Source of the DNA: Metabacillus sp. B2-18
GTDB taxonomy: Bacteria; Bacillota; Bacilli; Bacillales; Bacillaceae
Assembly: GCF_021117275.1 (NCBI RefSeq)
Contig: NZ_CP088246.1
Coordinates: 1 to 64,000 of the forward strand
DNA length: 64,000 bases
Direction: 5' to 3'
How positions within the stretch are numbered: position 1 is the first letter of the stretch; every line of letters starts with the position of its first letter. Shown piece after piece: positions 46,480-63,194 of the stretch. Made by a program: the position numbers and the translations under genes. The notes beneath the pieces were generated by a model. The model ran no database searches and had not been told where the DNA came from. It worked only from the letters and a program-made list of their open reading frames with translations.

Positions 46480-47073
46480 GTGCGACCATAAGGTCATATA
46501 AGAAATCTCCTTTTGCATGGAGTAGGCAAGACTACAAAGCCTATCACTACCAAACTTATCCGTGAGGGAAACCAAATATCGGGGAGTGTAGCATGTTTGG
46601 AAAGCTATAAGTTATCGAATCATCACGATACGACTGAATAGCGAAGTGAAATGATGTAAACGAGGATAAAAGCTAAACTGCTTGAATGACAGTCCGAGGG
46701 GGTTATTGGCCCACCTATGACGGAAGATGATTACCTACGTTATACAACGAAACGTATTAGCTAATTGGAGACTCATTACGAAATACACACTGATTAACTG
46801 TATGTCAGATGTGAGTAGTCTATCGTTGACCAACTATAATAAGTAGTAAAGGGCGAACGTCATATCCGACATTATATCAAGCTTGTTCTTATATGTGCTA
46901 AATGGTGATTACCTACGTCAGAACGCTTTTATAAAAGCTATGATAAATTGTATCTGAATATCTGATATGGTAACGGAGTTCTCGTAGTAGTCCGAGATGG
47001 GGAAAGCCCATTACATGGCGAAGGGGAACAGCTTATCAAGTCTAACTAAAATTGGAAAGGAGCGTGAGGCTCT

Positions 47074-48897: not shown

Positions 48898-48905
48898 TAG
48901 GTGGA

Positions 48906-48939
48906 GAGCCGTATACGCCGAGAGGTGTACGTACGGTTC
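48906..48939 (+). ncRNA. Group II intron domain V
   Basis: 34 nt folding as two stacked helices, GAGCCGTA with TACGGTTC and TACGCC with GGTGTA, separated by a CG bulge and capped by GAGA. It is the catalytic core of the ribozyme. Confidence 0.85.
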
Positions 48940-49000
48940 GGGGAGGAGTTCTTGGAAACCTAGTATAGAAATATGCCAAGGCGCTGGGTTCTTACTCTAC

Positions 49001-49744
49001 TTCATGCCTTGTACCTGGGTTGGTTGGCAAGATCCTACATGTAGCGGTAATGGTAAAGGTAATATATCAGAAAGTAATAAAAAGAGCATTTCATATATTA
49101 GTAGAATGGGAGGATATGGAACAGACGGGAATAATGATGGTGAGGCAGATATGTGGAACATATGGGATGCAGTTTTTTCATCCGCACACCTTTTAAAGGA
49201 TAATGGTTTTTTAGAAGATAAACGTAAAGCGATTTATAGCTATAACCATTCGAATGCCTATGTTGATGAGGTTGTACACTATGCAGAATTATTTGCTTCA
49301 AATACTGGTGGTACTCCAGAAGTAACCAAAGGAAAATTTATGCGACCTTCTTTAGGGCCCATCACAAGTCCGTTTGGTCCTCGTTGGGGGAAATTACATG
49401 CTGGTATTGATATTGGTTCAAATGCTTCAACAGACCCTATTGTAGCCTCTGCGGATGGCGTTGTAGTTAGGTCCTATACATCTTCAAGTTATGGAGAATG
49501 TATTATGATAAAACATAATATCGAAGGTGAAACTTATACTACGGTTTATGCTCATATGGTTACTGGTAGTAGAAGGGTTCAGACGGGACAAACAGTTCAA
49601 AAAGGGCAAGTGATTGGAATAAAAGGAACAACAGGTAGCTCTACAGGTGTACACCTTCATTTTGAAATTCGTAAAGGGGATTGGTCAACAAATAAATCAA
49701 ACGCTATTGATCCAATAGGATCAGGGCTCCTGCAATTAGATTAG
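49001..49744 (+). CDS. Conjugation cell-wall hydrolase, exon 2 (transglycosylase end plus M23 peptidase)
   Basis: The last 247 codons of the hydrolase. FMPCTWVGWQDP completes the transglycosylase motif begun in exon 1, with ISYISRMGGYGTDGNND and the YNHSNAYVDEVVHYAE end of the domain. An M23/LysM-free peptidase domain follows from about residue 110: GPITSPFGPRWGKLHAGIDIGS (HxxxD metal pair) and YAHMVTGS, then HLHFEIRKGD (HxH). The two enzyme activities cut glycan strands and cross-links. Standing alone, this part has no start with a ribosome site, so expression needs intron splicing. Confidence 0.85.
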   Translation, partial: FMPCTWVGWQDPTCSGNGKGNISESNKKSISYISRMGGYGTDGNNDGEADMWNIWDAVFSSAHLLKDNGFLEDKRKAIYSYNHSNAYVDEVVHYAELFASNTGGTPEVTKGKFMRPSLGPITSPFGPRWGKLHAGIDIGSNASTDPIVASADGVVVRSYTSSSYGECIMIKHNIEGETYTTVYAHMVTGSRRVQTGQTVQKGQVIGIKGTTGSSTGVHLHFEIRKGDWSTNKSNAIDPIGSGLLQLD

Positions 49745-49757
49745 TAGGTGATGAAGT

Positions 49758-50393
49758 ATTAAGAGATTTATATTATTCTTTACTGGATATATAGTTTTAA
49801 TGGTTATTGGTGCTGGAGTCTATTTATTATTTTTTAAAACTAACTCGGCTGATATTGCACAAGGGAAAGAATTAATGAATGTACTAGACGAGAGTTTAGT
49901 ACATTCTTCAGATGATGAACATAATCATAGCCATGATCATAATGAGGCTGGTTATGACTATGATGTTGAAATTATAGAAGAATTTCAATCTGTTGGTAAT
50001 ACGATTGACTTTATGGCGGCTACATTGATAGAAGAAGAGAGGGAGTATTTTTCTTCACTTTTTTTACCTGAGAACCTTTCTAAATCAATGTTTGAGTATA
50101 GTGACGATCCTTCAAGTGAGGATGTCATTCTTCAAATGATAAGAGAAATTAATAGAGAAGGAAAATTAATTGAAGTGAATTGGGAATCTCATATAACAGA
50201 AGGTAAATCCTTTTCAAGGGATGATCAAGATATAAATCTTCAGCTTATTTACAATGATAATAAGATATCAACTGCAAAAATAGATTTGCAATTGGTGGGA
50301 ACAGAACATTTTAATAGCGAAAGAATATACTATATAAATAATAGTCCTAAAAACTTTGTTGACCAGGTAAAAGAGAACCTAAAAGGTCTATGA
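49758..50393 (+). CDS. Membrane-anchored protein of the conjugation operon
   Basis: With an ATT start at 49758 (AGGTGATGAAG upstream) the protein is 211 residues and begins with a complete span, KRFILFFTGYIVLMVIGAGVYLLFF. From ATG 49800 the span would be cut to about 13 residues, so the ATT start or a sequence error is favoured. A His-rich linker (DEHNHSHDHNE) could bind metal. The soluble domain (about 70-211) has a VirB8/NTF2-like size but no clear signature. It starts 13 bases after the hydrolase stop and ends the operon. Confidence 0.65.
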   Translation: MKRFILFFTGYIVLMVIGAGVYLLFFKTNSADIAQGKELMNVLDESLVHSSDDEHNHSHDHNEAGYDYDVEIIEEFQSVGNTIDFMAATLIEEEREYFSSLFLPENLSKSMFEYSDDPSSEDVILQMIREINREGKLIEVNWESHITEGKSFSRDDQDINLQLIYNDNKISTAKIDLQLVGTEHFNSERIYYINNSPKNFVDQVKENLKGL

Positions 50394-50410
50394 AAAAGTA
50401 AATAAAAGCC

Positions 50411-50441
50411 AAAAAAGCGACTCCGAAGAGCCGCTTTTTTG
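50411..50441 (+). terminator. Terminator of the conjugation operon
   Basis: AAAGCGACTC and GAGCCGCTTT pair around CGAA, then T residues. The ACACATTTTAAGAGGATG words of the leader family follow. Confidence 0.8.
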
Positions 50442-50605
50442 TTACACATTTTAAGAGGATGAAAAAACATCCCTTTAAAAATTTTAGGATACATTAATAA
50501 TAGCATTTATATTCATATTTATCAATTGCTATTTTAGCTTTCAAACTTCTCTATTCTTGGATGATATTTCTAGTTTATGTCCAAATTTAGGTAAAATATT
50601 TGCAT

Positions 50606-50710
50606 TCACACTTTTGCTTTTGAAGGAACAGGAGTAGTAGTACTCTGTTCTTTTCCCGTGGCTCCTTGCTTTTTAATCTTGTCAAAGAGTGAATTTTTTT
50701 CAAAAAGCAC
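50606..50710 (-). CDS. Possible 34-residue basic protein
   Basis: A short minus-strand frame from GTG 50710 with GGAGG 7 bases upstream. It reads LFEKNSLFDKIKKQGATGKE and ends in a Thr/Pro/Lys tail. The ribosome site is excellent but the protein is very short and no homolog is recalled. The remaining gap 50442-51069 has only broken frames and the intron-like trace below. Confidence 0.35.
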   Translation of the reverse strand: MLFEKNSLFDKIKKQGATGKEQSTTTPVPSKAKV

Positions 50711-50807
50711 TTTGTCACCTCCAATAATAGCTGTGTAATTAAATATAGGATAATAACTGAACTCGCAAATACAGTAAATCCCTTAATTGCGTTAATATAA
50801 GACACTG

Positions 50808-50844
50808 CCTTTTTATGAGATGAAAGTCTCACGTACGGTATGAA
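50808..50844 (+). ncRNA. Degenerate group II intron domain V-like trace
   Basis: TTATGAGATGAAAGTCTCAC followed by GTACGGTATGAAC resembles the 3' part of a domain V (inner hairpin with a GNRA-type loop, then CGTACGG). The 5' arm is poorly paired. It is probably a remnant. Confidence 0.3.
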
Positions 50845-51069
50845 CAAGAGGAAAAGGGAGCGATAACTATCTAACACAACCGGTTGGAAGGGGGAGTGCT
50901 TTTGTGCCTAACTAATGGAGTATGAATAATCTAGTATTATACGGATGGAAAACATTGAATTGTTATTAATCTAATACTATCTATCTGTATTTTTTCTTTA
51001 AGTAACTCCGTTAATAAGAGTATAATAGAGGAGCATTAGAATTATATACTTGAAGTAGGAGAGGTCTGA

Positions 51070-51786
51070 TTGAGAACAAATAAATACAAAGCGAAACTAA
51101 GTGGTTTCAAAGCAACTCCAAGTGCAAATATACCTAAAATGCATGAAGATCTAGAGTTAATTAAAGACAGTAATGAACTACTATCAGATTTATTTAATGT
51201 AATACTGAAACAAAACCAATATTATGGTATTCGTTGGTTAATGGGACTGGAAAGATATGTTTTAGACCAATCAAAAAAAATTCCTCGTATCTTTAGGAAA
51301 AATCTATCTAGAGGCCATATAGTGGAAGTTGAGTTATTTGGGCATTTTAACAAAGAACTAACATTTTTACATCCTGCAGTAGTATTGTTTGATAATAATA
51401 AAGGGCAACTTCTTGTAGCACCTATTACTTCGGGAAAACACGGAGATAGTGATCCTCTTCATATTGATGTTGATTCAAGTGATGGACTTCATCATGAAAG
51501 TGGAATTTGTTTAGAGGCTATTCGTGGGGTAGACAAAAATAGGGTTTTATATCAACATTCAAAAGATGGAAAAAATGCAAAAGTTAGATCAGAAGTATTG
51601 GATAAGATTGATTTAGCAGTTATGGAGCATTTCATGCCTAATATGTTTAAAAAATTTAAAGATGCAGAAATTAAATTAATTGAGGAACAACAAAAAAATA
51701 AAGAATTAATGGATGAAATTGAAACATTGAAAGAGCAATTGAAACAAAGTGCATACCAGACAGCGGCTGCTACTCTAGAGGAATAA
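51070..51786 (+). CDS. PemK/MazF-like protein with C-terminal coiled coil
   Basis: A 238-residue protein starting at TTG 51070 behind AGGAGAGG. The middle (about 75-170) resembles the MazF/PemK RNase fold: LSRGHIVEVELFGHFNKELTF with a Gly-x-x-x-x-Val strand, FLHPAVVLFDNNKGQLLVAPITSG, and GICLEAIRGVDKNRVL. The N-terminal 70 and C-terminal 60 residues are helical; the tail (KKFKDAEIKLIEEQQKNKEL) is a coiled coil. No MazE-type antitoxin gene is adjacent. It may be a solitary MazF-like protein or the regulator of the downstream nuclease pair. Confidence 0.65.
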   Translation: MRTNKYKAKLSGFKATPSANIPKMHEDLELIKDSNELLSDLFNVILKQNQYYGIRWLMGLERYVLDQSKKIPRIFRKNLSRGHIVEVELFGHFNKELTFLHPAVVLFDNNKGQLLVAPITSGKHGDSDPLHIDVDSSDGLHHESGICLEAIRGVDKNRVLYQHSKDGKNAKVRSEVLDKIDLAVMEHFMPNMFKKFKDAEIKLIEEQQKNKELMDEIETLKEQLKQSAYQTAAATLEE

Positions 51787-51839
51787 AATATTGCAATATG
51801 ATGGAATATGTAGTAAAGTATCAGTATATAATATAGTAT

Positions 51840-51932
51840 GTTGTGCCTTAGCGCACCGCGTAACCGAGCGCATTCAATGTTTGGGAACAATGAGTCCTAG
51901 CACTCCGCGCAATTGAGCGCACCGTTCCCACG
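51840..51932 (+). ncRNA. GC-rich structured intergenic segment
   Basis: TGGGAAC (51880-51886) pairs with GTTCCCA (51923-51929), enclosing CCGCGCAATTGAGCGC. The preceding words GCGCACCGCGTAACCGAGCG are similar. It stands out from its AT-rich surroundings. A leader or small RNA is possible; no class is recognised. Confidence 0.35.
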
Positions 51933-51966
51933 AACCCTCCTCATCTTTACATGGGGAGGGTTTTTT
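51933..51966 (+). terminator. Terminator between the MazF-like gene and the nuclease pair
   Basis: AACCCTCC and GGGGAGGGTT pair around TCATCTTTACAT, then six T residues. TATAAT at 51973-51978 directly after it could start the next operon. Confidence 0.75.
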
Positions 51967-52004
51967 CGTACTTATAATCATATAACATGGGGGGAACTGT
52001 TAGA

Positions 52005-53198
52005 GTGGAAGGTAAGTGGAATTCTAGAGAAGATATATTTAGTTATCTGGAAGAATATTCTCAAAGTACCAAAGAGCAAATTGATAATTATAAAATGAAA
52101 AATACTCTCTTAAAGTCATATGTGTTTGAAACATTTAATGAAAGCCTTTTTGGGTTTGTACCTATTTCGAAAGAAATTTTAAATATTCAGAATTTATTTG
52201 GTGACCAAAAACATTTTCTTAAACAAATAGATGAGGAATTATATACTTTAAATGAAAATAATAAATTAGTAGGGTTTATCGAGCAGATAAATCCACGATT
52301 TTGTACATTATATACGACTGAATCTTCTAAGTATTCAGACCAACTAGCCCAATCTTATGTAAAGAAGTCAACAACCTTAGACTCTTTATGGATTTCTGGT
52401 AAAATGTATGACAACTTTTTAAGGGAAATTACTTTATACCATCCCCCAGAACGTTTTACAAAAATGAAATTCGAGTTTAATTCAATGTTTGAAATAGATC
52501 ACCTAAATAAAGAAAAGATTATAGAACATAAAGCTTCGTCGGTATCATTAGTAGAAGAGTTAGGTGGTATAGTACATAAACTAAATGGAGTGAGACAGTA
52601 CATCTCTTCTTTTCACTCAGTTGGAAGTTTACGCTTTCCAAGTCATGTTGGAAAAGGTGGTCATGATGTATATCAAAATGGTAAGTTTACAAATCGCTCC
52701 GATAGCTTTTCTGATCATCGTATGCAACTGAAACAAATCGTCTCTGTATATCAAGATATGACAGAGCGTTTGGAGAAAAAGACTTGGATAGAGGTAGAGG
52801 AAATAAAGAGTAAGAATAATCTAATAGATAATTCTTTTAAGGCAAGTCCCGTTACAATTAGGTTTAGTAAGCCTTTAAATAATTATGTATTTAATAATTT
52901 TGTGGAATACACTTTTCCGAAAGGAAGAGAACCATTTAAAATTTATGGTGAAATAAAAAGGGTGAGTGAAGAAAGGGTGCACATTTACGGGGTAGATCTT
53001 CACTTATGGCAAAATGTTGTTCTAGATTTAAGTAAGGAAGAATTTATTCTATTTCTTCCAAAAGGTACATGCGGGAATACAATTCATCGCTTAGTAACTA
53101 ATATTCAGAAATTCTTAGATCCACAGATTGATGTATATATTGGTAACTCTCCGTATGAAGGAATATTAAATCAAGTAATAGGTGGCAAAGATTTATGA
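52005..53198 (+). CDS. Unrecognised protein, first gene of a nuclease pair
   Basis: A 397-residue soluble protein. GTG 52005 is chosen because GGGGGGA lies about 8 bases upstream; an ATG at 51987 would leave almost no leader after the TATAAT box. The N-terminal half is helical and acidic. The middle has SLRFPSHVGKGGHDVYQNG and a C-terminal beta-rich part (EPFKIYGEIKRVSEERVHIYG). I recognise no family. It overlaps the nuclease-like gene by 4 bases, so the two are translated together and likely act as a complex. Confidence 0.6.
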   Translation: MEGKWNSREDIFSYLEEYSQSTKEQIDNYKMKNTLLKSYVFETFNESLFGFVPISKEILNIQNLFGDQKHFLKQIDEELYTLNENNKLVGFIEQINPRFCTLYTTESSKYSDQLAQSYVKKSTTLDSLWISGKMYDNFLREITLYHPPERFTKMKFEFNSMFEIDHLNKEKIIEHKASSVSLVEELGGIVHKLNGVRQYISSFHSVGSLRFPSHVGKGGHDVYQNGKFTNRSDSFSDHRMQLKQIVSVYQDMTERLEKKTWIEVEEIKSKNNLIDNSFKASPVTIRFSKPLNNYVFNNFVEYTFPKGREPFKIYGEIKRVSEERVHIYGVDLHLWQNVVLDLSKEEFILFLPKGTCGNTIHRLVTNIQKFLDPQIDVYIGNSPYEGILNQVIGGKDL

Positions 53199-54217
53199 GA
53201 ACAGAATTGACTCCATTATTTCAACTAAATTTGCTAATACATTTGAGTTTACCATACCCGGAAGGTTCTAGCTTAAATCCATATTTTAATAGGCAAGGTT
53301 ATTCTTTAAAACAAATAGAAAAGACTATACCGCTTGACCTGGGGAGTATAAAAAAGTTAAAAGGAATATGTGAACCTAAAAAAGCAGTGACACCAGAAGT
53401 AGTCTTATATAAGGACAGTGATAAAGAATATTTATTAATTGAATGCAAAGTCCAAGACTTTGATGTTGATTGGACACATCATGGAACAAGGCAAGCTGCT
53501 GGATACCTGAGTTTACCATTGGATCATTTAAAAAATTTTTTTGGATTAGAAAGTAAAGCGAAAATAAATACAAAAGTTATTTATGGTGTTAATCAACAAA
53601 AAGAACAACATATGTTTGAAACTCTGCAATCTATTAGTGAAAAAGTTAAAGATACGTTGGGACATGCTATGAAGCATGATACTTTTGGAATTGAAATTAA
53701 ACCAGATGGTTTATACTTATCAGTGCGAAATGGAGAGGAGTTAGAGAGTCATAGGGTTATAAATGAAAAAACTTTATTAAACAATGCTCTGATTTATATT
53801 ATTCCAGTAGATATTAATGGTCAATTAGAGAAAGAAAATGGAGAAATTCTACAAACGCAGGTTCGAAATTCTATAAGAAGTGTTATAGGTAAAAATATCG
53901 GACCACAACCTTTTTCTTTTAATAGTACAAGTATTTGTGAAAAAATTAATCCTGTTTGGGGACAATTACCGGTCCCATTTAAGAAGAAAATGAGGCGGTG
54001 GGTTCATAATTATATAAAAGAAATTATCGAACAAATTGTACAAATGGGTATAAATGTAACTGTACATGAACAGAATTATTCGTTCACTTCAGTTGAAGAG
54101 AAAAAAATTAAAAATGTAAGAAGATACCTACTTTCAGATAGATTCCTTGAAACCGGACAAAATATTTTTGAGAATTTTGAGCAACTGACGATCGATGAAT
54201 TTTTAGATGTTGTTTAA
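53195..54217 (+). CDS. PD-(D/E)XK nuclease-like protein
   Basis: A 340-residue protein. The region 55-110 reads as a restriction-type nuclease core: TPEVVLYKDSDKEYLLIECK contains the acidic residue and the E-x-K pair, followed by the helix WTHHGTRQAAGYLSLP with the Gln often seen in this superfamily. The rest is alpha/beta with no assigned domain. ATG 53195 overlaps the stop of the first gene. A two-gene nuclease operon next to toxin genes on a plasmid suggests a defence system, but I cannot match a named one. Confidence 0.6.
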   Translation: MRTELTPLFQLNLLIHLSLPYPEGSSLNPYFNRQGYSLKQIEKTIPLDLGSIKKLKGICEPKKAVTPEVVLYKDSDKEYLLIECKVQDFDVDWTHHGTRQAAGYLSLPLDHLKNFFGLESKAKINTKVIYGVNQQKEQHMFETLQSISEKVKDTLGHAMKHDTFGIEIKPDGLYLSVRNGEELESHRVINEKTLLNNALIYIIPVDINGQLEKENGEILQTQVRNSIRSVIGKNIGPQPFSFNSTSICEKINPVWGQLPVPFKKKMRRWVHNYIKEIIEQIVQMGINVTVHEQNYSFTSVEEKKIKNVRRYLLSDRFLETGQNIFENFEQLTIDEFLDVV

Positions 54218-54527
54218 AATGGTTATAGGTAAGAAAATCATACTAAAATAGGATATTAAATAAAGACTTCGGTAAATCTGAAGATATCCTAGAAAAGTAG
54301 ACAAAGGATTCAGAAATAAGACCTGTTTTTTCCACAATGATTTGACAACGGTCATTCATCACTTGACTGACCGTTGCAATTGGACAAGCTATTGAGATAG
54401 GTTGAACAGACCAATCCGCTCGCATGTAGTATCATCATTGACGCAACGTTTAGGTATAAGCATGAAGGGGATTTTCGATTGTGACCGAGTAAGTTAAAGA
54501 AGCTAGCATTTTCTAACTCTTAAATAA
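54218..54527. other. Non-coding gap after the nuclease pair
   Basis: No gene with a start site is seen on the plus strand. A 60-codon open frame on the minus strand (54243-54425) has no ribosome site. Confidence 0.3.
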
Positions 54528-54528
54528 A

Positions 54529-54558
54529 CTTCGTGTAACACAACTAAACCTAAGTATA
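54529..54558 (+). repeat. Weak dif-like site A
   Basis: The left arm CTTCGTGTAACA matches sites B and C in its first 10 bases, but the right arm is degenerate. It is in the same orientation as B and C. Confidence 0.4.
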
Positions 54559-54563
54559 AATAA

Positions 54564-54606
54564 CGTCTTAAACCATTGAAATTACTGGGATTTAGACGGT
54601 TTTTTC
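54564..54606 (+). terminator. Terminator beside site A
   Basis: CGTCTTAAACC and GGGATTTAGACG pair imperfectly, then seven T residues. Confidence 0.65.
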
Positions 54607-54803
54607 AGGAAAGAGAGATAAGTGTTATTAACACATCAAGTGGGATGAAACTCTAGGATTCAATCCAAGTCTCTTTTTTCATCAATCGGCCATGTTGTGG
54701 AAACTCTTATAAGTACACAATTGACTAAATACTTCGCAATAAATATCTTCATTTTTAGGTGATTTTGTTAGAGCAAGTGGAGATTCCTCGAAGATTATAA
54801 GAA

Positions 54804-54843
54804 AACCCAATCTTCCTTGTAAAGAAAATTGGGTTATCTTTTA
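54804..54843 (-). terminator. Terminator of the aldo-keto reductase gene
   Basis: AACCCAAT and ATTGGGTT pair with inner CTT/AAG; on the minus strand a T-rich tail follows. The 54607-54803 gap holds nothing else recognised. Confidence 0.6.
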
Positions 54844-54858
54844 TTTATAAACAAAGGA

Positions 54859-55839
54859 TTAATTATGACCAACTATTGGGTGTGGTGCATATGGTTCTTC
54901 TAAGTATGTCATTTCTTCAGGAGTTAGCTTAACTGATAAAGAACCTACAGCACCATCGAGATGAGAGATTTTCGTTGCACCTATAATGGGCGCAGTTACT
55001 GGTTCTTTCTGTAGTAGCCAAGCCAGTGCGATATGAGTTCGTGGAACTCCATGTTTTTCTGCCAATTCAGCAACTCTCTCTACAACATATCGATCTGCTT
55101 CAGCAGTCGCATCATATTTAGATTTTAATATGAAGTCTGTTTCGGAGCGTTGAGTTGATTCCAACCAATCACGGGTTAATCTTCCTGATGCAAGCGGACT
55201 ATATGGAGTCACCCCAATTTTTTCTTCTTTACAAAGAGGAAGCATTTCCCTTTCTTCTTCACGGTATATGAGATTGTAATGATTCTGCATCGAAACAAAG
55301 CGAGTCCAGCCATTTTTTTCAGCTACATGTAATGCCTTTTGGAATTGCCATGCGTACATGGCTGATGCACCGATATATCTTGCCTTTCCAGCTTTCACCA
55401 CATCATGTAATGCTTCCATCGTTTCTTCGATAGGGGTATTGTAATCCCAACGATGGATAATATAAAGATCTACATAATCGGTTCCCAGTCTCTTCAGGCT
55501 CTTATCAATTTCACTCATGATTGCCTTTCGGGATAATCCTGCGCCATTTGGACCTTCATGCATTCGGCCATGTAGCTTTGTTGCGATTACAACTTCATCA
55601 CGATTGGCGTAATCCTTTAGAGCTCGTCCAAGAAATTCCTCACTGGTTCCCATTGAATATACATTTGCCGTATCAAAGAAATTGATCCCAAGATCAAGTG
55701 CTTTTTTAATAATAGAGCGACTTTGCTCTTCATTAAGTACCCATTTATGAATCCATTTTTCTGCTTCACCAAAACTCATACAGCCAAGACAAAATCTAGA
55801 TACATCCAATCCTGTATTACCTAGTTTCACATATTCCAC
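54859..55839 (-). CDS. Aldo-keto reductase
   Basis: A 326-residue NAD(P)H-dependent (beta/alpha)8 oxidoreductase that reduces aldehydes and ketones. GTG 55839 is chosen over the upstream ATG because GTGAGGA lies 8 bases before it. The catalytic tetrad is visible: Asp in FFDTANVYSMG with its Tyr, Lys in VIATKLHG, His in YIIHRWDYNTP. NADP-binding segments appear in PVTAPIIGATK. It has the size and sequence style of the yajO/oxidoreductase group. It diverges from an AraC regulator across a 140-base gap, the usual layout for regulation by that protein. Confidence 0.93.
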   Translation of the reverse strand: MEYVKLGNTGLDVSRFCLGCMSFGEAEKWIHKWVLNEEQSRSIIKKALDLGINFFDTANVYSMGTSEEFLGRALKDYANRDEVVIATKLHGRMHEGPNGAGLSRKAIMSEIDKSLKRLGTDYVDLYIIHRWDYNTPIEETMEALHDVVKAGKARYIGASAMYAWQFQKALHVAEKNGWTRFVSMQNHYNLIYREEEREMLPLCKEEKIGVTPYSPLASGRLTRDWLESTQRSETDFILKSKYDATAEADRYVVERVAELAEKHGVPRTHIALAWLLQKEPVTAPIIGATKISHLDGAVGSLSVKLTPEEMTYLEEPYAPHPIVGHN

Positions 55840-56001
55840 TTCTTTAATCCTCACTTTCATTTATTAACACATATCTATTTTTAGTTAGGATATTGCACTT
55901 CTAATTATGTCACAAATCAGGAACTAAACCTAAACCCATTACTATCAGGTTTTTGCCTAATCCTATCAAATCACTTCCTCACTCAACCAATATCAAGTAA
56001 A

Positions 56002-56940
56002 ATGAAACAATCTAAGATGAACGAAGAAGGAGATAAGATATGTCTGAGAAAATTGATAAGCAGAATACTACGAAAACTTATTGAGCGTTACACATGGCAG
56101 GATGGTGTTCATCAAACCTCTATTTCATCTTTATTTCTCATCCGTGAATCTATTATTACCGAACCCATCTCTAGGGTTAATGAGCCCTCTTTTTGCATTA
56201 TCGTACAAGGAGAAAAAGAGGTATGGTTAGGAGAGGAATATTTTAGGTATGGTCCTTGGGATTACATTGTGGCATCCATTGACTTGCCAGTTACAGGGCA
56301 AGTTATCAAAGCCTCAGCTGACTCTCCTTATTTAGCTCTAAAACTTGAGATTAGCCCTAGCGAAATCCTAGAAGTATTAGATACTATAGATATTCATTCA
56401 GGTAGGAGTAAAAATCCGAAACGAGCAATGTTTATAAGCGAAGTAGTGCCATCTTTGTTGGATGCAGTCATCAGATTAGCTTGGTTACTAGATAATCCAA
56501 AACACATCCCGATTCTTGCTCCATTATTTAAGAAAGAAATTCTTTATTGGGTTTTACAAGGTCCGCACGGGGAAGCACTGGAACAAATTGCGTTAGAAGG
56601 CAGCAATGCCATCCGAATTAGAAACGTTATAGAACATCTCCTAAATAACTATGAAAAGTCCTTAAGAATAGAGGAACTAGCGGATATAGGAAATATGAGT
56701 GTCGCTTCGTTTCATCGGCATTTTAAAGAGGTAACTGCTATGAGTCCAATTCAGTTTCAAAAACAATTGAGATTGCAGGAAGCTAGACGTTTATTATTAG
56801 CTGAGTCATCAGATATAGCTGATGTCGCATTCAGGGTGGGCTACGAAAGTCAATCGCAATTCAGTCGAGAATATTCCCGCATGTTCGGTTTTTCACCTAG
56901 AGCGGATATAAACCGACTGAGAGAGAGCCACAAGACATAA
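56002..56940 (+). CDS. AraC family transcriptional regulator
   Basis: About 300 residues: an N-terminal AraC_N cupin-like domain (EPSFCIIVQGEKEVWLGEE) and a C-terminal pair of HTHs (SLRIEELADIGNMSVASFHRH and DIADVAFRVGYESQSQFSREY). The AAGGAGAT site at 56028 points to ATG 56040, which reads MSEKIDKQNTTK and then stops. Removing one A from AAAA near 56083 would join it to KLIERYTWQDG. As given, translation must start at 56002 or 56017 without a good site, so an indel is likely. It probably controls the divergent aldo-keto reductase. Confidence 0.8.
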   Translation: MKQSKMNEEGDKICLRKLISRILRKLIERYTWQDGVHQTSISSLFLIRESIITEPISRVNEPSFCIIVQGEKEVWLGEEYFRYGPWDYIVASIDLPVTGQVIKASADSPYLALKLEISPSEILEVLDTIDIHSGRSKNPKRAMFISEVVPSLLDAVIRLAWLLDNPKHIPILAPLFKKEILYWVLQGPHGEALEQIALEGSNAIRIRNVIEHLLNNYEKSLRIEELADIGNMSVASFHRHFKEVTAMSPIQFQKQLRLQEARRLLLAESSDIADVAFRVGYESQSQFSREYSRMFGFSPRADINRLRESHKT

Positions 56941-57110
56941 GCTCAAGCTAATTTGTCTTAGGATATTCAGGGAAATTCGTGCTATAGTTTGAAAGAGACA
57001 TGATTAATACAGTTTTCCATTGCTGCACATTACAAGAATACTACGCAATTGAAAAATGCTATCTTCAAATAATCGTCCAATTGGAAATAACAGGTAAAAG
57101 ATAAAAACAG

Positions 57111-57143
57111 AAGAGGGAGGAAACCTCTCTTAATTTTTAAAAT
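57111..57143 (+). terminator. Terminator before site B
   Basis: AAGAGGGAGG and CCTCTCTT pair around AAA, then a T-run. The 56941-57110 gap has no gene. Confidence 0.65.
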
Positions 57144-57144
57144 A

Positions 57145-57174
57145 CTTCGTGTAAAATATCAGTTTTGAGCGAAG
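57145..57174 (+). repeat. dif-like site B
   Basis: A 30-bp dyad: left arm CTTCGTGTAAAA, 6-bp spacer TATCAG, right arm TTTTGAGCGAAG. The outer CTTCG/CGAAG are perfectly inverted. It follows a terminator, as site C does. Confidence 0.6.
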
Positions 57175-57295
57175 AGTTTAAGATTATAAAAAATCTAATT
57201 TAACTATATATATTAAGGAAGACCAAATTTTCTATATTTTTTTAGAAATCCTGAGTATAAATGGTAAAATATACATAGTAGTAAGATGCTTAATT

Positions 57296-57676
57296 ATGGT
57301 GAGAGATATTATTTGATAAAACAAAAGAAAGCCCCTTTGGACAAGTTGTTTCTATATCAGGAATGAATATTATTGTTGAAATCAATAAAGAATTGCTTCA
57401 GAGAAATTTAGAACAACAAATTGTATTTGAACAAGAAATGATAAAGTTCCTTAAAAATGGTGAGAAAATGAATAAGAACATATTACAAAAAATAATAAAT
57501 AGACAAAAAAATATAAAAATATAAGGGAAAATGCACAAGAAGAATTAGCAGTTTTAGAGAAGTATTTTGGTAAAGGTAGTTTAGAACCTTTAACAATATA
57601 TAATGTAATTAAGAAGCATCTAGAAGCACATCAAAAAGAAATATCTTATTTTGGTTTACGAGGAATAATAATATGA
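57296..57676 (+). pseudogene. Small helical protein gene, frameshifted
   Basis: Three frame pieces join into about 126 residues: MVRDII, then DKTKESPFGQVVSISGMNIIVEINKEL, then RENAQEELAVLEKYFG ending GLRGIII. The GQVVSISGMNIIVEI segment resembles a HerA-type HAS barrel strand pair, but this is weak. Frame breaks are near TTT at about 57310 and in the A-run at 57505. The last frame overlaps the next gene by ATGA. Either decayed or mis-sequenced. Confidence 0.45.
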
Positions 57677-57945
57677 TTAGTAACGGCAATTTATGTTATT
57701 TATTCAACTCTCAATTATCTCCTCAAACTGGTAAATTCGAATATGGGTCCCCATTATTAACTTATATCACTAATCAAATTATAGCTCTAATTATAGTTGG
57801 TATATTTCTTTCTATGTATTTTATCACGACTTTTAATTTTTTCATTTCAGATTGGAAGAGAAGGAATCAGATATATATAAATGAATATATGATTAAGCTT
57901 GTTGAAGAGAAAATTAATGCAATTAGTGATGCTAAGAAGGTATAG
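57673..57945 (+). CDS. Single-span membrane protein
   Basis: A 90-residue protein whose ATG overlaps the stop of the preceding broken frame, so it was translated with it. One strong span lies at about residues 36-58 (IIALIIVGIFLSMYFITTF), with a polar N-terminus and a charged helical tail. It sits upstream of the Cap4-like gene inside module B-C. No family is recognised; a membrane partner of the defence-like protein is a guess. Confidence 0.55.
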   Translation: MISNGNLCYLFNSQLSPQTGKFEYGSPLLTYITNQIIALIIVGIFLSMYFITTFNFFISDWKRRNQIYINEYMIKLVEEKINAISDAKKV

Positions 57946-58051
57946 CAGGGTGTGGCTAATATCTAATCTCAAAAAACTAAAACAAATTAGATGTTTTTTA
58001 AATTTAATTCTTTGAAGTATTAAATAATTTTTTTAATAGGGTGATCTAAAT

Positions 58052-60094
58052 ATGAATGAAAAACCACCATACTTTGGAAAGAAATTATCCGGAGGTGCTT
58101 ATAATTCTTCGGGATTAATCTATCAAGATATTTCTGCAATAATTTGCTTCTTTGAATACATAAATAGGGGCAACACTGTAAAAAGCTTAAGTATTGAAAC
58201 AATTAATGACTTTGTAATTCATCAAGAAAATACTTTTATTTCTGTTCAGGTAAAGAAAAAAAATTTAACTATATCTGATTTGAAGAAAATATTCAAAGAA
58301 TCATTTCTTGAACCAAGTAATGGCTTAATGATTGTTGGCTCAAATTTTAATCAAGAACTGGATCAGTTAATAAAATTAAGAGATCAATATCGCAACGTAA
58401 TAGAGTCAGATTTTGATGAAACGTTTAAACAAAATATCGCCTTAGAATTTCATGAAAAAATATTTAGTTTAGGATTGGAACAGGAAAAAGATATTTTTAT
58501 AAATAGTGAATATAAATGTTTTCCAGAACAAACCATTGATGCTATTCTTTTAGCAACTGTTTGGACATGGGCTGAAAACCAACAGATTTCAATTAATATT
58601 AACCAGTTTCTAAATAGTTTAAAAGTAGAGTTACAAACTTTAAGAAGTAAAAGAGGACACATTGGTTTAAATGATATAGATAGATTAATTCAAGTTCATT
58701 CAGTTCAATCAGTAGCTAGTAAGATAATAAAAGAAATTTACCAAAATCAAGTAATAAATTCTTCTCAAATACTTTCAGTTTTAGGGGATACCCAGGAAGC
58801 TATCTTAAAACCTTTAGAAGATAAACTGAATTTTACAGATGAGTTAATTAAAAAAGGAGAGTATAAAGAAGCGCTGGATATCTATAAAAGTTTAGTGACA
58901 TTCTATCCGAAGGAAGAAATATTTCTTCAATGCGCTGCTCTTAACGAAATGTGTAAAAAATTTGAAGAAGCTGTTAAATATAGTAATAGTGTGTTATCAA
59001 TAAATTCATTAAATTATGCAGCGAATTTCATAAAAGGGACATCCTTAGGAGCGCTTAAAAGGTATACTGAAGCAGTTCAACAATTAGAATATGCACTAAC
59101 CATCAAAAGAACCCCTGAATTATATTACAATTTAGCTCATATCTTTTGGCTTAATAATGATAATCAAAATGCTATTAATAATTATAAATTATGTCTTGAA
59201 TTAAACAATAGTTTTTCTTCAGCTCACTTAAATATCAGTATTTGTTATTTTGAAAATATGGACCTAGAAATGTCCTTATATCATGTCAATCAAGCAATTC
59301 TCATAGAACCTAATATGTACCAGGCATATGCTCGTAAGGGGGAATTATATAGATTTCTAGGGTTATACGACGATGCAATACATTATTTTGAAGAATGTTT
59401 GTTAAGGGATAAAGCAAATTATCAAGCCCTCCTCGGAATTTCCCTTAGTTTTGTTGAGAAAGGATGCCTTTCTGAAGGAATTATTCATTTTAAGAACTTC
59501 TTTTACCATTATTATGATCAATTTTTCAATTCTAATGATACTGTTGGAAAGAAAGTTGGTATTATTGATATAGGTAAGAATGGAACATCACTTACTACAA
59601 TTGAACTTGCAGGAGAAAATCAATTAAATATTTATGTTAAAGAAACCTGCTTACCCGTTTCAATACAAAAAAGAAATGATTTTATTTTTCTCGGCGCTTT
59701 AGAGCTTTCAGATCATACTGGATCTGCTTTATATCCAGCTATAGGTAAAGTATATGAGAATCAACAACAATTCAAAAGTGTACTTGAACAAATAAAAAAA
59801 TCAGTCGACTTATTTCAATTTTTTGACCAACAATTGTATATTGATATGGACAATAACATTGATGTAAACCTGACAGAACGTGAAAAATACGTACTAATTG
59901 AAATTACATTTAATAATAAATATCACATAACAGGAATTACAAATGAAAAATCTGGTGGGTTAGAATCATTTTTGGATAATCTAGAAAAGTGCGGACAATT
60001 CCGGATTCACTTAGAATGTTTTGAATCAAAAGAAGTGTTTGTTATCGATGGATTAAAAGATATTAATATTTCTTTATTTACAAAAGAACACTGA
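58052..60094 (+). CDS. Cap4/DUF4297-like nuclease domain fused to TPR repeats
   Basis: A 680-residue protein. The N-terminal 60 residues, LSGGAYNSSGLIYQDISAII then LSIETINDFVI and ISVQVKKKN, show the Gly...Tyr-Gln, E-x-x-x-D and Q-x-K pattern of the Cap4/DUF4297 nuclease fold used by antiphage effectors. Residues about 260-500 contain at least six TPRs, such as AANFIKGTSLGALKRYTEAV and AYARKGELYRFLGLYDDAI. The C-terminal 170 residues are unassigned and beta-rich. The combination suggests a sensor-nuclease, but catalytic residues are read by eye only. It is the main cargo of module B-C. Confidence 0.6.
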   Translation: MNEKPPYFGKKLSGGAYNSSGLIYQDISAIICFFEYINRGNTVKSLSIETINDFVIHQENTFISVQVKKKNLTISDLKKIFKESFLEPSNGLMIVGSNFNQELDQLIKLRDQYRNVIESDFDETFKQNIALEFHEKIFSLGLEQEKDIFINSEYKCFPEQTIDAILLATVWTWAENQQISININQFLNSLKVELQTLRSKRGHIGLNDIDRLIQVHSVQSVASKIIKEIYQNQVINSSQILSVLGDTQEAILKPLEDKLNFTDELIKKGEYKEALDIYKSLVTFYPKEEIFLQCAALNEMCKKFEEAVKYSNSVLSINSLNYAANFIKGTSLGALKRYTEAVQQLEYALTIKRTPELYYNLAHIFWLNNDNQNAINNYKLCLELNNSFSSAHLNISICYFENMDLEMSLYHVNQAILIEPNMYQAYARKGELYRFLGLYDDAIHYFEECLLRDKANYQALLGISLSFVEKGCLSEGIIHFKNFFYHYYDQFFNSNDTVGKKVGIIDIGKNGTSLTTIELAGENQLNIYVKETCLPVSIQKRNDFIFLGALELSDHTGSALYPAIGKVYENQQQFKSVLEQIKKSVDLFQFFDQQLYIDMDNNIDVNLTEREKYVLIEITFNNKYHITGITNEKSGGLESFLDNLEKCGQFRIHLECFESKEVFVIDGLKDINISLFTKEH

Positions 60095-60120
60095 AAATCA
60101 ACATAATTATTCACATAAAA

Positions 60121-60160
60121 AGGAAGAGGATTGTTATATACAATCTTCCTCCTTTTATAC
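60121..60160 (+). terminator. Terminator before site C
   Basis: AGGAAGA and TCTTCCT with inner ATTG/CAAT form the stem, followed by CCTTTTATA. Confidence 0.7.
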
Positions 60161-60163
60161 AAA

Positions 60164-60193
60164 CTTCGTGTAAAATACTAATTTTACGAATAG
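60164..60193 (+). repeat. dif-like site C
   Basis: A 30-bp dyad: left arm CTTCGTGTAAAA (identical to site B), spacer TACTAA, right arm TTTTACGAATAG. The right arm matches site D. Confidence 0.65.
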
Positions 60194-60301
60194 TTGAATA
60201 TAGAAAACAAAACAAATGTTTGCTATAATAAAATTAAGTCAATTTATGAAAGTTTTTCCGAAATGAATTTGAAATATGTTAGAAAATTTAAGGTGATAAA
60301 A

Positions 60302-60684
60302 TTGATCGGTTATATGAAGTTTGATGTAATGTTTTTTGATGATTTATTGCAAAAGTAGTTCTAAAACCACCTGGAAGTGACAGACCATACGTTATTAATT
60401 ACATTGAAGGGTTTAATAAACAATTTCCCCCTAACCCTAAGGGATCCATAACTAAAGAAGAACTAGAAAGATGGCTAAAATGGCGTGTATTTCCCCCTAC
60501 TAGGGCCAATACCGATGAATTATTAAATGTCCTCGGGTTGAAAATTTATAACCGTTGGGGAATCGTTCGTAAAACACATGGAGTAATGGCAGATGATGAA
60601 ATATGGCTTCGTTTTAATGGTGAATCCTTAAAGCATCGAGATATTGTTCTTCGTAAATACCTTTACTATCCAGATGAGCAATAA
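60302..60684 (+). pseudogene. Small protein upstream of Fic, frameshifted
   Basis: A TTG at 60302 behind AAGGTGAT begins IGYMKFDVMFFDDL, which stops after 18 residues. The frame then continues after a one-base loss near 60345 as IAKVVLKPPGSDRPYVINYIEG and reads to 60684, ending KYLYYPDEQ. The complete protein would be about 127 residues. The C-terminal half, IVRKTHGVMADDEIWLRFNG, resembles proteins I associate with HipA-like loci, but I cannot name the family. It is the first gene of module C-D. Confidence 0.5.
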
Positions 60685-60733
60685 GAATAATTTAAATTTA
60701 TCAAAATTATGTTCATGTAAAGGATGATAATCA

Positions 60734-61468
60734 ATGTTTGATGAAATCAATCGTAAAAAGGCCGCATTAGATACAGCACGGCCATTACCAAAATACACAT
60801 TAAAAGGCCTCAGAGAAAAGATGTTGCTTGAATGGACTTATAATTCAAATGCAATTGAAGGTAATACACTCACTATTAATGAAACGAAAATAGTGTTAGA
60901 AGGAATAACTGTAGGTGGAAAAACTATGCGAGAACACCTAGAAGTTATAAACCATCGTGATGCTATTCAGTATGTTGAGGATATTGTACATAAAAGTGAT
61001 CCCTTATCTGAATGGCAAATTAAAAATTTGCATCGGCTAGTACTTAAAGGAATTGATGATGAATATGCTGGGGTTTATCGTGATCAACAAGTATTCATAT
61101 CGGGTGCACAACATACTCCTCCAGCACATTACTTGATTTCTGAAAAAATGATGCAAATGATGAATTGGTATCATGACGAAGGAGTTAAACTTCATCCAGT
61201 CGTACGTGGTGCAATGTTACACGCTATTTTTGTTGGTATTCATCCATTTATCGATGGAAATGGAAGAACATCACGCTTATTGTTAAATTTAGAGCTGATG
61301 AAGGATGGGTATCCACCAGTTGTTATAAAAGTAAAAAATCGATTAGCATATTATGAGGCACTTGATTTATCACATACAAAAGAGGATTATTCTGATTTTA
61401 TCCAATTGGTTGCTGAAGAAGTAGAAGATTCTCTGGATTTATATTTAAGCGCAATTAGCAAAAACTGA
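60734..61468 (+). CDS. Fic family protein (AMP-transferase)
   Basis: A 244-residue Fic protein. The catalytic motif HPFIDGNGRTSR is complete (His, Asn-Gly-Arg) at about residue 174. The inhibitory motif SNAIEGN (S-x-x-x-E-G) lies in the N-terminus near residue 37, as in class II Fic proteins regulated by their own alpha-inh helix. The flap hairpin is GVYRDQQVFISGAQHTPP. It would transfer AMP or another group to Ser, Thr or Tyr of a target. ATG 60734 has AAGGATG upstream. A HepT-like gene follows after 89 bases. Confidence 0.93.
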   Translation: MFDEINRKKAALDTARPLPKYTLKGLREKMLLEWTYNSNAIEGNTLTINETKIVLEGITVGGKTMREHLEVINHRDAIQYVEDIVHKSDPLSEWQIKNLHRLVLKGIDDEYAGVYRDQQVFISGAQHTPPAHYLISEKMMQMMNWYHDEGVKLHPVVRGAMLHAIFVGIHPFIDGNGRTSRLLLNLELMKDGYPPVVIKVKNRLAYYEALDLSHTKEDYSDFIQLVAEEVEDSLDLYLSAISKN

Positions 61469-61557
61469 AACACCGTAATGTGCCTTATATTAAATGACTT
61501 TATATTCCAATGATTAAATTAATTGTAACTATGTTCTAGAAAGTGAGTCAATCTTAA

Positions 61558-61962
61558 ATGAAGAATGATGTAATTCTAAATAAAATCAACGTTATTGAAC
61601 GTTGTGTTAAACGAGTCAAAGAAGAATATGACAATAATCCCGAAAATCTACAAAATATCACTAAGCAAGACTCTATCATCCTTAACTTGCAACGTGCGTG
61701 TGAAGCAAGTATTGATTTGGCGATGCATATTGTTATTGAAAAGAAAATTGGTTTGCCGCAAAATAGTCTAGATGCTTTTACATTATTAGAAACAGCCTAT
61801 ATTCTCCCCTCTTCAATCGTTCAAAAAATGAAGTTTTTAGTGGGTTTTAGAAATATTGCTGTTTACGATTTTCAAGAAACCAATTTATCTACCTTACAAA
61901 GATTAGTTGAAGATCATTTGATAGACTTTATGGAATATACAAGATCACTACTATTATATTAA
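61558..61962 (+). CDS. HepT-like (DUF86) HEPN protein with altered active site
   Basis: A 134-residue helical HEPN protein of the HepT/YutE family: LNLQRACEASIDLAMHIV and KMKFLVGFRNIAVYDFQ. Active HepT RNases have R-x4-H-x-Y in this helix; here it is RNIAVYDF, with Tyr in place of His and Phe in place of Tyr, so RNase activity is doubtful. Normal HepT is encoded beside MntA, a nucleotidyltransferase that AMPylates HepT. No such gene is present here, but Fic, another AMPylator, is adjacent. ATG 61558 has only a weak ribosome site. Confidence 0.75.
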   Translation: MKNDVILNKINVIERCVKRVKEEYDNNPENLQNITKQDSIILNLQRACEASIDLAMHIVIEKKIGLPQNSLDAFTLLETAYILPSSIVQKMKFLVGFRNIAVYDFQETNLSTLQRLVEDHLIDFMEYTRSLLLY

Positions 61963-61989
61963 TTAACAATAAATTTATTATGTAAACAA

Positions 61990-62019
61990 CTACTCGTAAA
62001 AATTGTATTTTACACGAAA
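61990..62019 (-). repeat. dif-like site D (inverted)
   Basis: On the minus strand: left arm TTTCGTGTAAAA, spacer TACAAT, right arm TTTTACGAGTAG. It matches site C in 25 of 30 positions by eye and lies 35 bases before the recombinase start, in opposite orientation to A-C. Confidence 0.6.
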
Positions 62020-62054
62020 TTCTACATAATTTCCAATTAGAAAGGATGTCTTTA

Positions 62055-63194
62055 TTGGCCAATACCAGACAACATCAAAAACACAAAGAAAAATATAAAG
62101 CATTATACTCTCAAATGCCAGAATATGTTAAGGATTATATATTTGCTATGGAGGACAACAAGCGGTCTCCCTCCACCCTATTAAATTATTTATTAGATTA
62201 TCAAGATTTTTTTAAATGGTTAATACAGGAAGGAATCTCAGAAGCAGATCATTTAAACGACATTCATCATGATATTTTAGCTACCCTCCCCCTTGAGTTA
62301 GCGAAAGCATACTTTAGGAAGTTGGAAGAAGAAGAATATAATGTTTCTAAGCATGAAAAGAAAACTCGTTCAAAGTCTATCATTAACAGGAAGAAATCAG
62401 CTTTACGTTCTCTTTTTAAATACCTAACGACTCAATATGAGGGTAACGATGGTGAGCCACTATTTCATCGTAATGTTATGCAAAAAATACCTGTCATAAA
62501 AGAAAAAGAATCATTAAATTCCCGAAGTAATAAAATGGCAGATGCTATCTTTCAGGACGATTCTGATATTGATTTCCTATATTATGTTAAAAATGATTAT
62601 GAGAAAGGGCTTTCTAATCGTCAACTATCCTATTTTTTAAGAGATAAAGAAAGAGATTACGCCATCCTCTCCCTTCTTCTAGGTAGCGGTATACGTGTAA
62701 ACGAGATTGCTGAAATTAGAATTAGAGATCTTAACTTTGAAAAGAGTACAATATCTGTTATGAGAAAAGGTGATAAGAAAGATATTGTGACTGTCTTTGC
62801 AGAGGTTATGGAAGATATAGAGGCATATTTACATATAAGGAATAAGCGATATAAGGGTACTAATGCAGAGCATGAATACTTGTTTCTCTCAAAATATAAT
62901 AAAGGTTTCTCCCCTGCTACAGTTAGAACAATTCAAGATCTAGTACGAAAATATACTAAAGCGTTTAATAAAGGAAAACGCAGCATGTCTCCTCATAAAT
63001 TACGTCATACATATGCGACTAATCTAATGGACGAAACTAAGGACCTCTCCCTCGTTATGGAGCAGCTTGGACACACTTCTGAAACTACGGCATTATTATA
63101 TGTTCATACCAGTCAAGAGAAAGCTCGTAAAGCCGCCGAAGCGTTATCTGAGCGTAGGAAACGTTTAAAAGACGCTGATAAGGATATTTTTTAA
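62055..63194 (+). CDS. XerS-like tyrosine recombinase
   Basis: A 379-residue phage-integrase-family recombinase. TTG 62055 is preferred over ATG 62046 because AAAGGA then has 8-base spacing. The N-terminal domain MPEYVKDYIFAMEDNKRSPSTLLNYL is of the XerS type (single Xer of streptococci and relatives; plasmid copies are common). The catalytic domain has LGSGIRVNEIAEI, SPHKLRHTYATNLM, LGHTSETT and the Tyr in ALLYVHTSQ. It could resolve plasmid multimers and may act on the dif-like sites nearby. All catalytic residues are present. Confidence 0.9.
   Translation: MANTRQHQKHKEKYKALYSQMPEYVKDYIFAMEDNKRSPSTLLNYLLDYQDFFKWLIQEGISEADHLNDIHHDILATLPLELAKAYFRKLEEEEYNVSKHEKKTRSKSIINRKKSALRSLFKYLTTQYEGNDGEPLFHRNVMQKIPVIKEKESLNSRSNKMADAIFQDDSDIDFLYYVKNDYEKGLSNRQLSYFLRDKERDYAILSLLLGSGIRVNEIAEIRIRDLNFEKSTISVMRKGDKKDIVTVFAEVMEDIEAYLHIRNKRYKGTNAEHEYLFLSKYNKGFSPATVRTIQDLVRKYTKAFNKGKRSMSPHKLRHTYATNLMDETKDLSLVMEQLGHTSETTALLYVHTSQEKARKAAEALSERRKRLKDADKDIF

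Follow-up and report, generated by a model that had tools for sequence, protein, structure and literature searches.

Two kinds of Xer recombination system are close to the locus described here, a group of dif-like sites clustered beside a xerS gene in Metabacillus sp. B2-18. The pdif modules of Acinetobacter Rep_3 plasmids are small plasmid modules, often carrying toxin-antitoxin genes, which are bounded by inversely oriented sites with a 6-bp spacer and depend on host XerC and XerD. For these modules it has been reported that inverted flanking sites are the rule, that the recombining spacers are identical or nearly so, and that the movement of a single module needs a route other than excision (PMC13141974). 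In streptococci and lactococci, a single XerS-family recombinase is served by difSL, a 31-bp site with an 11-bp central region (PMC5357621) located immediately upstream of the recombinase gene. XerS-like genes have also been described on plasmid prophages of the B. cereus group (PMC8026635), and the mobile tet(45) element of Bacillus cereus 9i combines a difSL-like site with an XerS-superfamily integrase, for which its authors reported no significant similarity to streptococcal XerS (PMC4876114). Compared by its description there, this element differs from our locus in having two integrase genes, a putative excisionase and resistance cargo. Otherwise, the literature found on Gram-positive or XerS-linked modules consisted of Acinetobacter work, streptococcal XerS papers and unrelated items.

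The window analysed here comprises the first 64,000 nucleotides (64 kb) of the 330,352-bp contig C2 (NZ_CP088246.1), the second of two contigs of a 5.47-Mb genome rated 100% complete. Judging from its sequence, C2 is plasmid-like, because a relative of the same genus (G003) has a Rep_3 initiator gene in a block shared with C2 (95% identity to positions 119655–121796). The Rep_3 type of the G003 plasmid is a further likeness to the Acinetobacter plasmids. The sites, the recombinase gene and the cassette adjoining it are arranged as follows.

54529..54558, plus strand: site A, a relic with the left arm and the end of the right arm, lacking 12 bp relative to the equivalent position in G003 according to the alignment
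57145..57174, plus strand: site B, spacer TATCAG, degenerate right arm TTTTGAGCGAAG, matrix score 24.6
60164..60193, plus strand: site C, CTTCGTGTAAAA TACTAA TTTTACGAATAG, matrix score 31.8
60194..60229, plus strand: header behind C with an extended -10 promoter, TATAAT at 60224-60229
60298..60684, plus strand: probable relic, by resemblance read from the sequence, of a partner gene of about 130 aa that is intact in loci L033, L054 and L057
60734..61468, plus strand: Fic-family protein, 244 aa (PF02661, E 3e-20; PADLOC SoFic, 130 bits)
61558..61962, plus strand: HepT RNase toxin, 134 aa (NF047751, 132 bits, cut-off 60)
61978..61989, plus strand: TTATGTAAACAA box abutting D, resembling the right arm of the host chromosomal dif
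61990..62019, minus strand: site D, inverted relative to A–C, plus-strand spacer ATTGTA, matrix score 30.0
62046..63194, plus strand: xerS, tyrosine recombinase, 382 aa (NF003462, 398.8 bits)

Sites B, C and D are 30-bp dyads with a 12-6-12 layout, in which, unlike in difSL, the inner A4/T4 ends lie 6 bp apart. A, B and C are direct repeats, and D is the sole inverted site in the window and the terminal one. The joint C/D pattern matched the window twice, at C without mismatches and at D with one mismatch on the minus strand, and gave no match in 100 shuffles. In the whole genome it again found just C and D, and the reversed-pattern control found nothing. The three dyads pointed out in a preliminary description of this DNA are thus real. 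C and D, to which it ascribed a common right arm, fit one pattern, and the right arm of B differs from theirs; A, which it listed as a weaker dyad, retains the left arm and the right-arm end and is better regarded as a relic. A weight matrix, trained on 23 sites that included B, C and D and came mostly from the surveyed xerS loci, detected nothing on C2 at scores of at least 12 apart from B, C and D, which all lie less than 5 kb from the intact xerS. In 1.32 Mb of Markov sequence it gave no match at 14 or above and three at 12 or above, and in 44 lactic-acid-bacterial xerS loci, used as an outside control, four matches of at least 13 (scores 14.3–16.4), each more than 6 kb from xerS. A 56-bp query around C matched 40 plasmid records at E values up to 10, of which 22 were weak Borrelia matches and were treated as noise.

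The recombinase gene is intact. Its product reaches 398.8 bits with NF003462, the NCBIfam equivalog of XerS, for which the cut-off is 267, in line with the early reading of an intact XerS-like gene directly behind an inverted site. The protein is far under the cut-offs of the XerC and XerD equivalogs and also below that of the IntI integrase TIGR02249 (65.5 bits, cut-off 265). Residues R217, K241, H317, R320, H343 and Y352, which we take to be the catalytic-type residues, are invariant in an alignment of five proteins. XerS relatives were present in 121 plasmid records at E 1e-60, among them plasmids of Planococcus, Enterococcus and Streptococcus, and the phage collection contained at E 1e-40 only two short Listeria records with a relative (36–37% identity). 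The host chromosome encodes an XerS paralogue with 38% identity to the plasmid XerS. It has one palindromic site to itself, which occurs just once in the genome when up to 3 mismatches are allowed. This paralogue, its site and the host chromosomal dif, which presumably has 3 mismatches to B. subtilis dif, all lie within 1.7 kb (2338196-2339817 of the other contig, C1). Two further plasmids carry additional recombinase genes. That of A. pseudofirmus OF4 has a second XerS-like gene with the perfect palindrome TATTACGTAAAA ACAACA TTTTACGTAATA close upstream, which resembles the site of the host chromosomal paralogue. On the Priestia koreensis FS-1 plasmid, a xerS gene with a C-DUF4238-D arrangement is separated by about 12 kb from another that has no sites; the site-less XerS is 97% identical to that of strain DSM 16467, which has C-HNH-D.

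The arrangement of the window recurs widely. We surveyed 57 xerS loci from Bacillaceae, which supplied most of them, and near relatives, taken from plasmids and genome contigs and containing some redundancy (L033/L118, L006/L123, L055/L065). In 39 of them a site precedes the xerS match by 51–111 bp, including a hybrid site in L047, and 36 have a C-type site together with D, at a C–D distance of 341–3045 bp. C occurred without D in four loci and D without C in three, and one site was located downstream of xerS. Within the open-licence PMC papers searched, which is no proof of absence, we found no description of this succession of C, cassette, D and xerS. The D spacer was ATTGTA or ATTGAA in 33 of 39 cases, and the C spacers were of 23 kinds among 36. 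When the arms were compared in 34 of the 36 C–D loci (duplicates L033 and L123 left out; the loci are related), pairing was closer in the inverted register in 22, closer in the direct register in 2 and tied in 10. None of 2000 permutations equalled the agreement of the outer arms of C and D within loci, and only 42 equalled that of the inner arms. Several direct sites were present in the window and in L043, L044, L062 and L148; the last three have two direct sites followed by one inverted.

The familiar function of such a unit would be that XerS and D resolve plasmid dimers as in streptococci, in which case C would be an old duplicate and the toxin-antitoxin genes would turn over in the ordinary way. 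Such an explanation agrees with the single site adjoining streptococcal xerS (PMC5357621), with difSL-like matches at the lactic-acid-bacterial xerS loci (exactly one in 31 of 44, none in 12, two in 1), with the likewise single palindromic site of the host chromosomal paralogue, and with the finding that enterobacterial replicons larger than 250 kb all have an active Xer site (PMC11724359). We nevertheless consider it unlikely to be the whole explanation, since it fails to account for another site that is inverted and shares the outer arm, for the promoter next to C, for C as a border of homology and for C–D modules away from xerS.

According to the preliminary description, dyads scattered over chromosomes irrespective of gene borders would speak against its idea, and this was not the case. 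The exact D core was found in 13 of 80 family genomes and in 14 of 397 order genomes (reversed control, 8 of 397); the matrix judged 2 of the 13 and 5 of the 14 to be chance matches, and the others scored at least 20.9 and occupied one or two places per genome. Two of nine D-core regions examined individually (G067 and G071) were such chance matches. One IMG/VR contig contained the exact core.

Some sites have features of their own. A TTATGTAAACAA-like box adjoins D at a fixed spacing in 19 of the 39 D sites and is possibly a third binding arm. In the window this box is identical over about 11 bp to the host chromosomal dif, in its right arm. The idea that it is a tail belonging to HepT alone was dismissed, because L131 carries the box beside a DUF3800 cassette. 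In the closely related loci L038 and L122 the C sites (at 4906 and 4798, respectively) are perfect palindromes with mirrored differences on both arms (TTATTCG/CGAATAA vs TTATGCG/CGCATAA), as if the arms evolve in concert. The W02 plasmid loci L190 (4192) and L191 (4267) have single C-like sites in or beside short open reading frames (ORFs) with common flanks, perhaps a repeated gene, and these were handled as a separate repeat.

The C-type site is joined to a promoter. An extended -10 element of the TGnTATAAT type was located 19–32 bp behind C in 35 of 44 hand-chosen proximal C sites. Random windows drawn from these loci had it in 118 of 85,930 cases, and in mirror image it was present at 0 of the 44 sites; the usual form is TTTGnTATAAT. 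The pattern of the C right arm plus GTTTGsTATAAT occurred in 4 of 80 family genomes, always at a known C site. Outlying sites such as B mostly have no extended -10, and no TATAAT-type promoter was found within 60 bp behind B. The position of C just upstream of the cassette promoter, together with that of D in the xerS upstream region, where the D spacer could act as a TTGWAT -35 box, might suggest that the sites are operators at which XerS represses its own gene (D) or tunes the cassette promoter (C), so that their conservation would come from regulation and not from mobility. However, a good -10 at the right distance follows only 4 of 39 D sites, and C–D modules with no adjoining xerS, as well as unlike cassettes beside close XerS proteins, would be left unexplained. 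This makes a purely regulatory role quite improbable, and the idea of the D spacer as the xerS -35 box fits only these 4 of 39 sites.

Between C and xerS, all 43 ORFs of at least 100 aa read towards xerS. The count covers the largest non-overlapping ORFs in 29 of 30 intervals, all but that of L062, which run from C as far as xerS or, in L008, beyond D; 22 of the intervals contain such ORFs and 7 do not. The uniform direction bears on whether C and D, which are inverted by their arms, form an invertible switch that flips the cassette. Since no ORF is turned the other way and the spacers of C and D differ, flipping was rejected and we regard such a switch as highly improbable. The genes themselves belong to several families: MNT, HepT, a HipA-like kinase with a partner of about 130 aa, Fic with HepT, and RelA/SpoT-like proteins, further HNH_5, RES with NERD, DUF1173, SEC-C, DUF4238, DUF3800 and a marginal proteasome-type match. 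The HipA-like kinase has HipA_C and PI3_PI4 scores under the Pfam cut-offs, and in unannotated loci the names MNT and HepT denote resemblance judged by eye. In the window the Fic and HepT identities given earlier were borne out by profile matches (PF02661, NF047751); an MNT partner of HepT, which would make it a type VII toxin-antitoxin pair, was not found there, and MNT and HepT are paired in relatives such as L006 according to annotation (Polbeta/NTP_transf_2). Decay is suggested in seven C–D intervals, 341–572 bp in length, of which six have no 100-aa ORF and that of L128 no annotated gene.

Comparison of loci indicated that C marks a border of homology. Among the 36 C–D loci, 212 of 630 pairs match across C, and in 204 of these the left edge of the match lies within 30 bp of C, although the pair counts are not independent because the loci include several duplicates and close relatives. 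In the other eight, three pairs are from the same plasmid or collinear, two edges are at -223 and three at -35 to -46. Many of the 212 matches are short; among those of at least 900 bp the left edge falls within the same distance of C in 37 of 42. Such a border supports exchange at C and does not prove it, since a functional unit with unconserved flanks would give the same picture.

Unlike cassettes accompany closely similar recombinases. In L044, L045 and L052, XerS is 86–91% identical and the cassettes are unrelated, namely MNT–HepT, a RelA/SpoT-like gene with DUF6037 and a weak HNH match, and a proteasome-like pair, respectively. In L051, L054 and L128 (XerS 94–98% identical) homology starts 3–10 bp inside the D left arm. 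L054 has a HipA-like cassette, L051 a 277-aa gene with no recognisable C, and the interval of L128 has no genes, a displaced copy of the partner gene lying 2.7 kb upstream. L063 and L131 (XerS 97% identical) have MNT-HepT and DUF3800, respectively, and keep their flanks around these unrelated genes (C flank 77 bp, 74%; D flank 58 bp, 83%); in L131 the D site is degenerate, at a distance of 8 kb from xerS. Hand-assigned cassette labels required 23 changes on a quick XerS tree of 39 hand-picked rows and an outgroup, against a shuffled mean of 24.2 and with values as low in 49 of 200 shuffles, a distribution near random.

Copies unlinked to the recombinase were also observed. C–D pairs away from xerS occur on a Cytobacillus oceanisediminis plasmid, where MNT–HepT is present, and on C. 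firmus and C. solani plasmids, where they are decayed. The Niallia Man26 plasmid has a C–D pair with HepT and no adjoining xerS, and another genome of the window's genus (G013) contains, away from xerS, a C–D array of two modules with DUF4062 and weak Abi/HEPN matches. In L047 a single hybrid site joins the C left flank of its relatives to their D right flank, and this locus is probably an emptied platform, as judged from the junction.

It could be argued that the cassette, between a conserved header and HepT, is remodelled by nothing more than homologous recombination and gene decay. Within the clade of the window, according to a comparison that covered 29 of the hand-chosen C sites, the header is nearly identical before MNT, HipA-like, Fic and a 597-aa gene, and HepT is kept behind MNT, HipA-like or Fic; as header and HepT stay constant while the middle gene changes, part of the variety in this clade looks like internal replacement and not C/D exchange. 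The cassettes of L003, L151 and L153 are decayed, while their XerS is about 96% identical to that of L154, in which MNT-HepT is intact. These processes would not explain why whole cassettes with header and tail differ among L044, L045 and L052, or why the homology of L051 and L128 to L054 left of xerS, apart from the displaced partner gene of L128, stops inside D. As a complete account we therefore regard them as unlikely.

To the left of C, the window contains further segments.

51070..54217, plus strand: segment left of A, with a PemK/MazF-like gene at 51070-51786 (PF02452, E 2e-10) and two unknown genes
54859..56940: A–B segment, with an aldo-keto reductase at 54859-55860 on the minus strand (PF00248) and an AraC-type regulator at 56002-56940 on the plus strand (PF06719/PF12833)
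57673..60094, plus strand: B–C segment, with a 90-aa protein and a 680-aa TPR protein (TPR families)

Relative G003 is 98.6% identical to the window across 45583–50593, and in this comparison homology is absent from 50593 to 54536. It returns at site A (54536) for about 115 bp at 80%, and again at site C (60162) at 87% over 3.0 kb. The DNA left of C is unrelated between the two, and on the G003 side it includes a sub-threshold Cap4_nuclease match and an AAA match. In the window, the N-terminal part of the TPR protein gave no Cap4 match in Pfam at E ≤ 1, and the Cap4-like label given to this protein at first is not supported.

Based on the observed sites and their architecture, cargo, promoter, homology borders and unlinked copies, we think it probable that the locus is an XerS/difSL-type dimer-resolution unit turned into a cassette platform, which would work like pdif modules with one plasmid-borne recombinase. 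The plasmid-encoded XerS would bind the 30-bp difSL-like sites. Both this binding and strand exchange at C and D are inferred by analogy, because of what is known of the XerS family and difSL (PMC5357621). D, just upstream of xerS, would be the anchor and probably also the dimer-resolution site of the plasmid, and cassettes would begin, at the 5' end, with a C-type site and carry beside it a sigma-A-type promoter of their own. XerS acting at C and D may swap the D-proximal cassette, either directly or via cointegrates as proposed for pdif modules, and recombination among directly repeated C-type sites could let further modules gather leftward. The opposed orientation of C and D disfavours simple excision of the cassette next to D, and a toxin-antitoxin cassette in this position would thus stay as a stabiliser, a role we infer.

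Several observations weigh against this interpretation, besides the internal replacement in the window's clade, the decayed cassettes beside a closely similar XerS and the dependence among the compared pairs. No upstream site was found at 14 of the 57 xerS loci, and the C and D spacers have on average 2.4 of 6 bases in common in the better, antiparallel register. The MNT–HepT label alone is somewhat clustered on the XerS tree (9 changes vs 11.8, as low in 25 of 500 shuffles). Slippage between 7-bp TTTTACG repeats could equally have produced the L047 junction, and the xerS of this locus lacks 57 bp through a deletion. The A–B and B–C segments were not found elsewhere as units, homology borders being seen at A and C only, and A–B, unlike the C–D cassettes, holds a gene on the opposite strand. 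The idea of dif-like bounded modules put forward in the preliminary description is therefore partly supported: plasmid XerS sites do flank modules, plasmids whose XerS proteins are close have different ones, and in 204 of 212 matches the left border of homology is C, but A–B and B–C were not seen to move and the sites do not alternate.

The cassette platform also differs in structure from the systems to which it can be compared. Unlike the pdif modules, it has an XerS encoded nearby on the plasmid that apparently stands in for host XerC and XerD, its sites in the window cluster beside xerS without C/D alternation, A, B and C being direct and D inverted, and a promoter is attached to C. Unlike XerS/difSL, it is plasmid-borne and has a second inverted site and a cassette. 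With integrons it shares a recombinase gene beside an anchor site, variable cassettes and, in some loci, several direct sites; it differs in using XerS and not IntI, in its promoter-carrying cassettes and in an anchor inverted to the array. Like IMEX elements it would be mobile DNA exploiting Xer sites, and unlike them it has its own recombinase and its sites are not host dif. A more far-reaching version, which we put forward tentatively and with some doubt, is that Bacillaceae megaplasmids possess an integron-like single-recombinase system, in which XerS and the anchor D capture promoter-bearing toxin-antitoxin and defence cassettes with C-type sites, unlike spacers are tolerated, and D is often (19 of 39) three-part, its left flank copying the XerD arm of the host dif.

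If this were true, the three-part D would link cassette traffic to the host dif machinery. With examples that are probably emptied, occupied or swapped, a version relying on one enzyme would offer a simpler system for studying the movement of single modules. The platform would also be a route by which large Gram-positive plasmids gather toxin–antitoxin and defence genes, and it would mean that dimer-resolution recombinases become cassette platforms outside XerCD.

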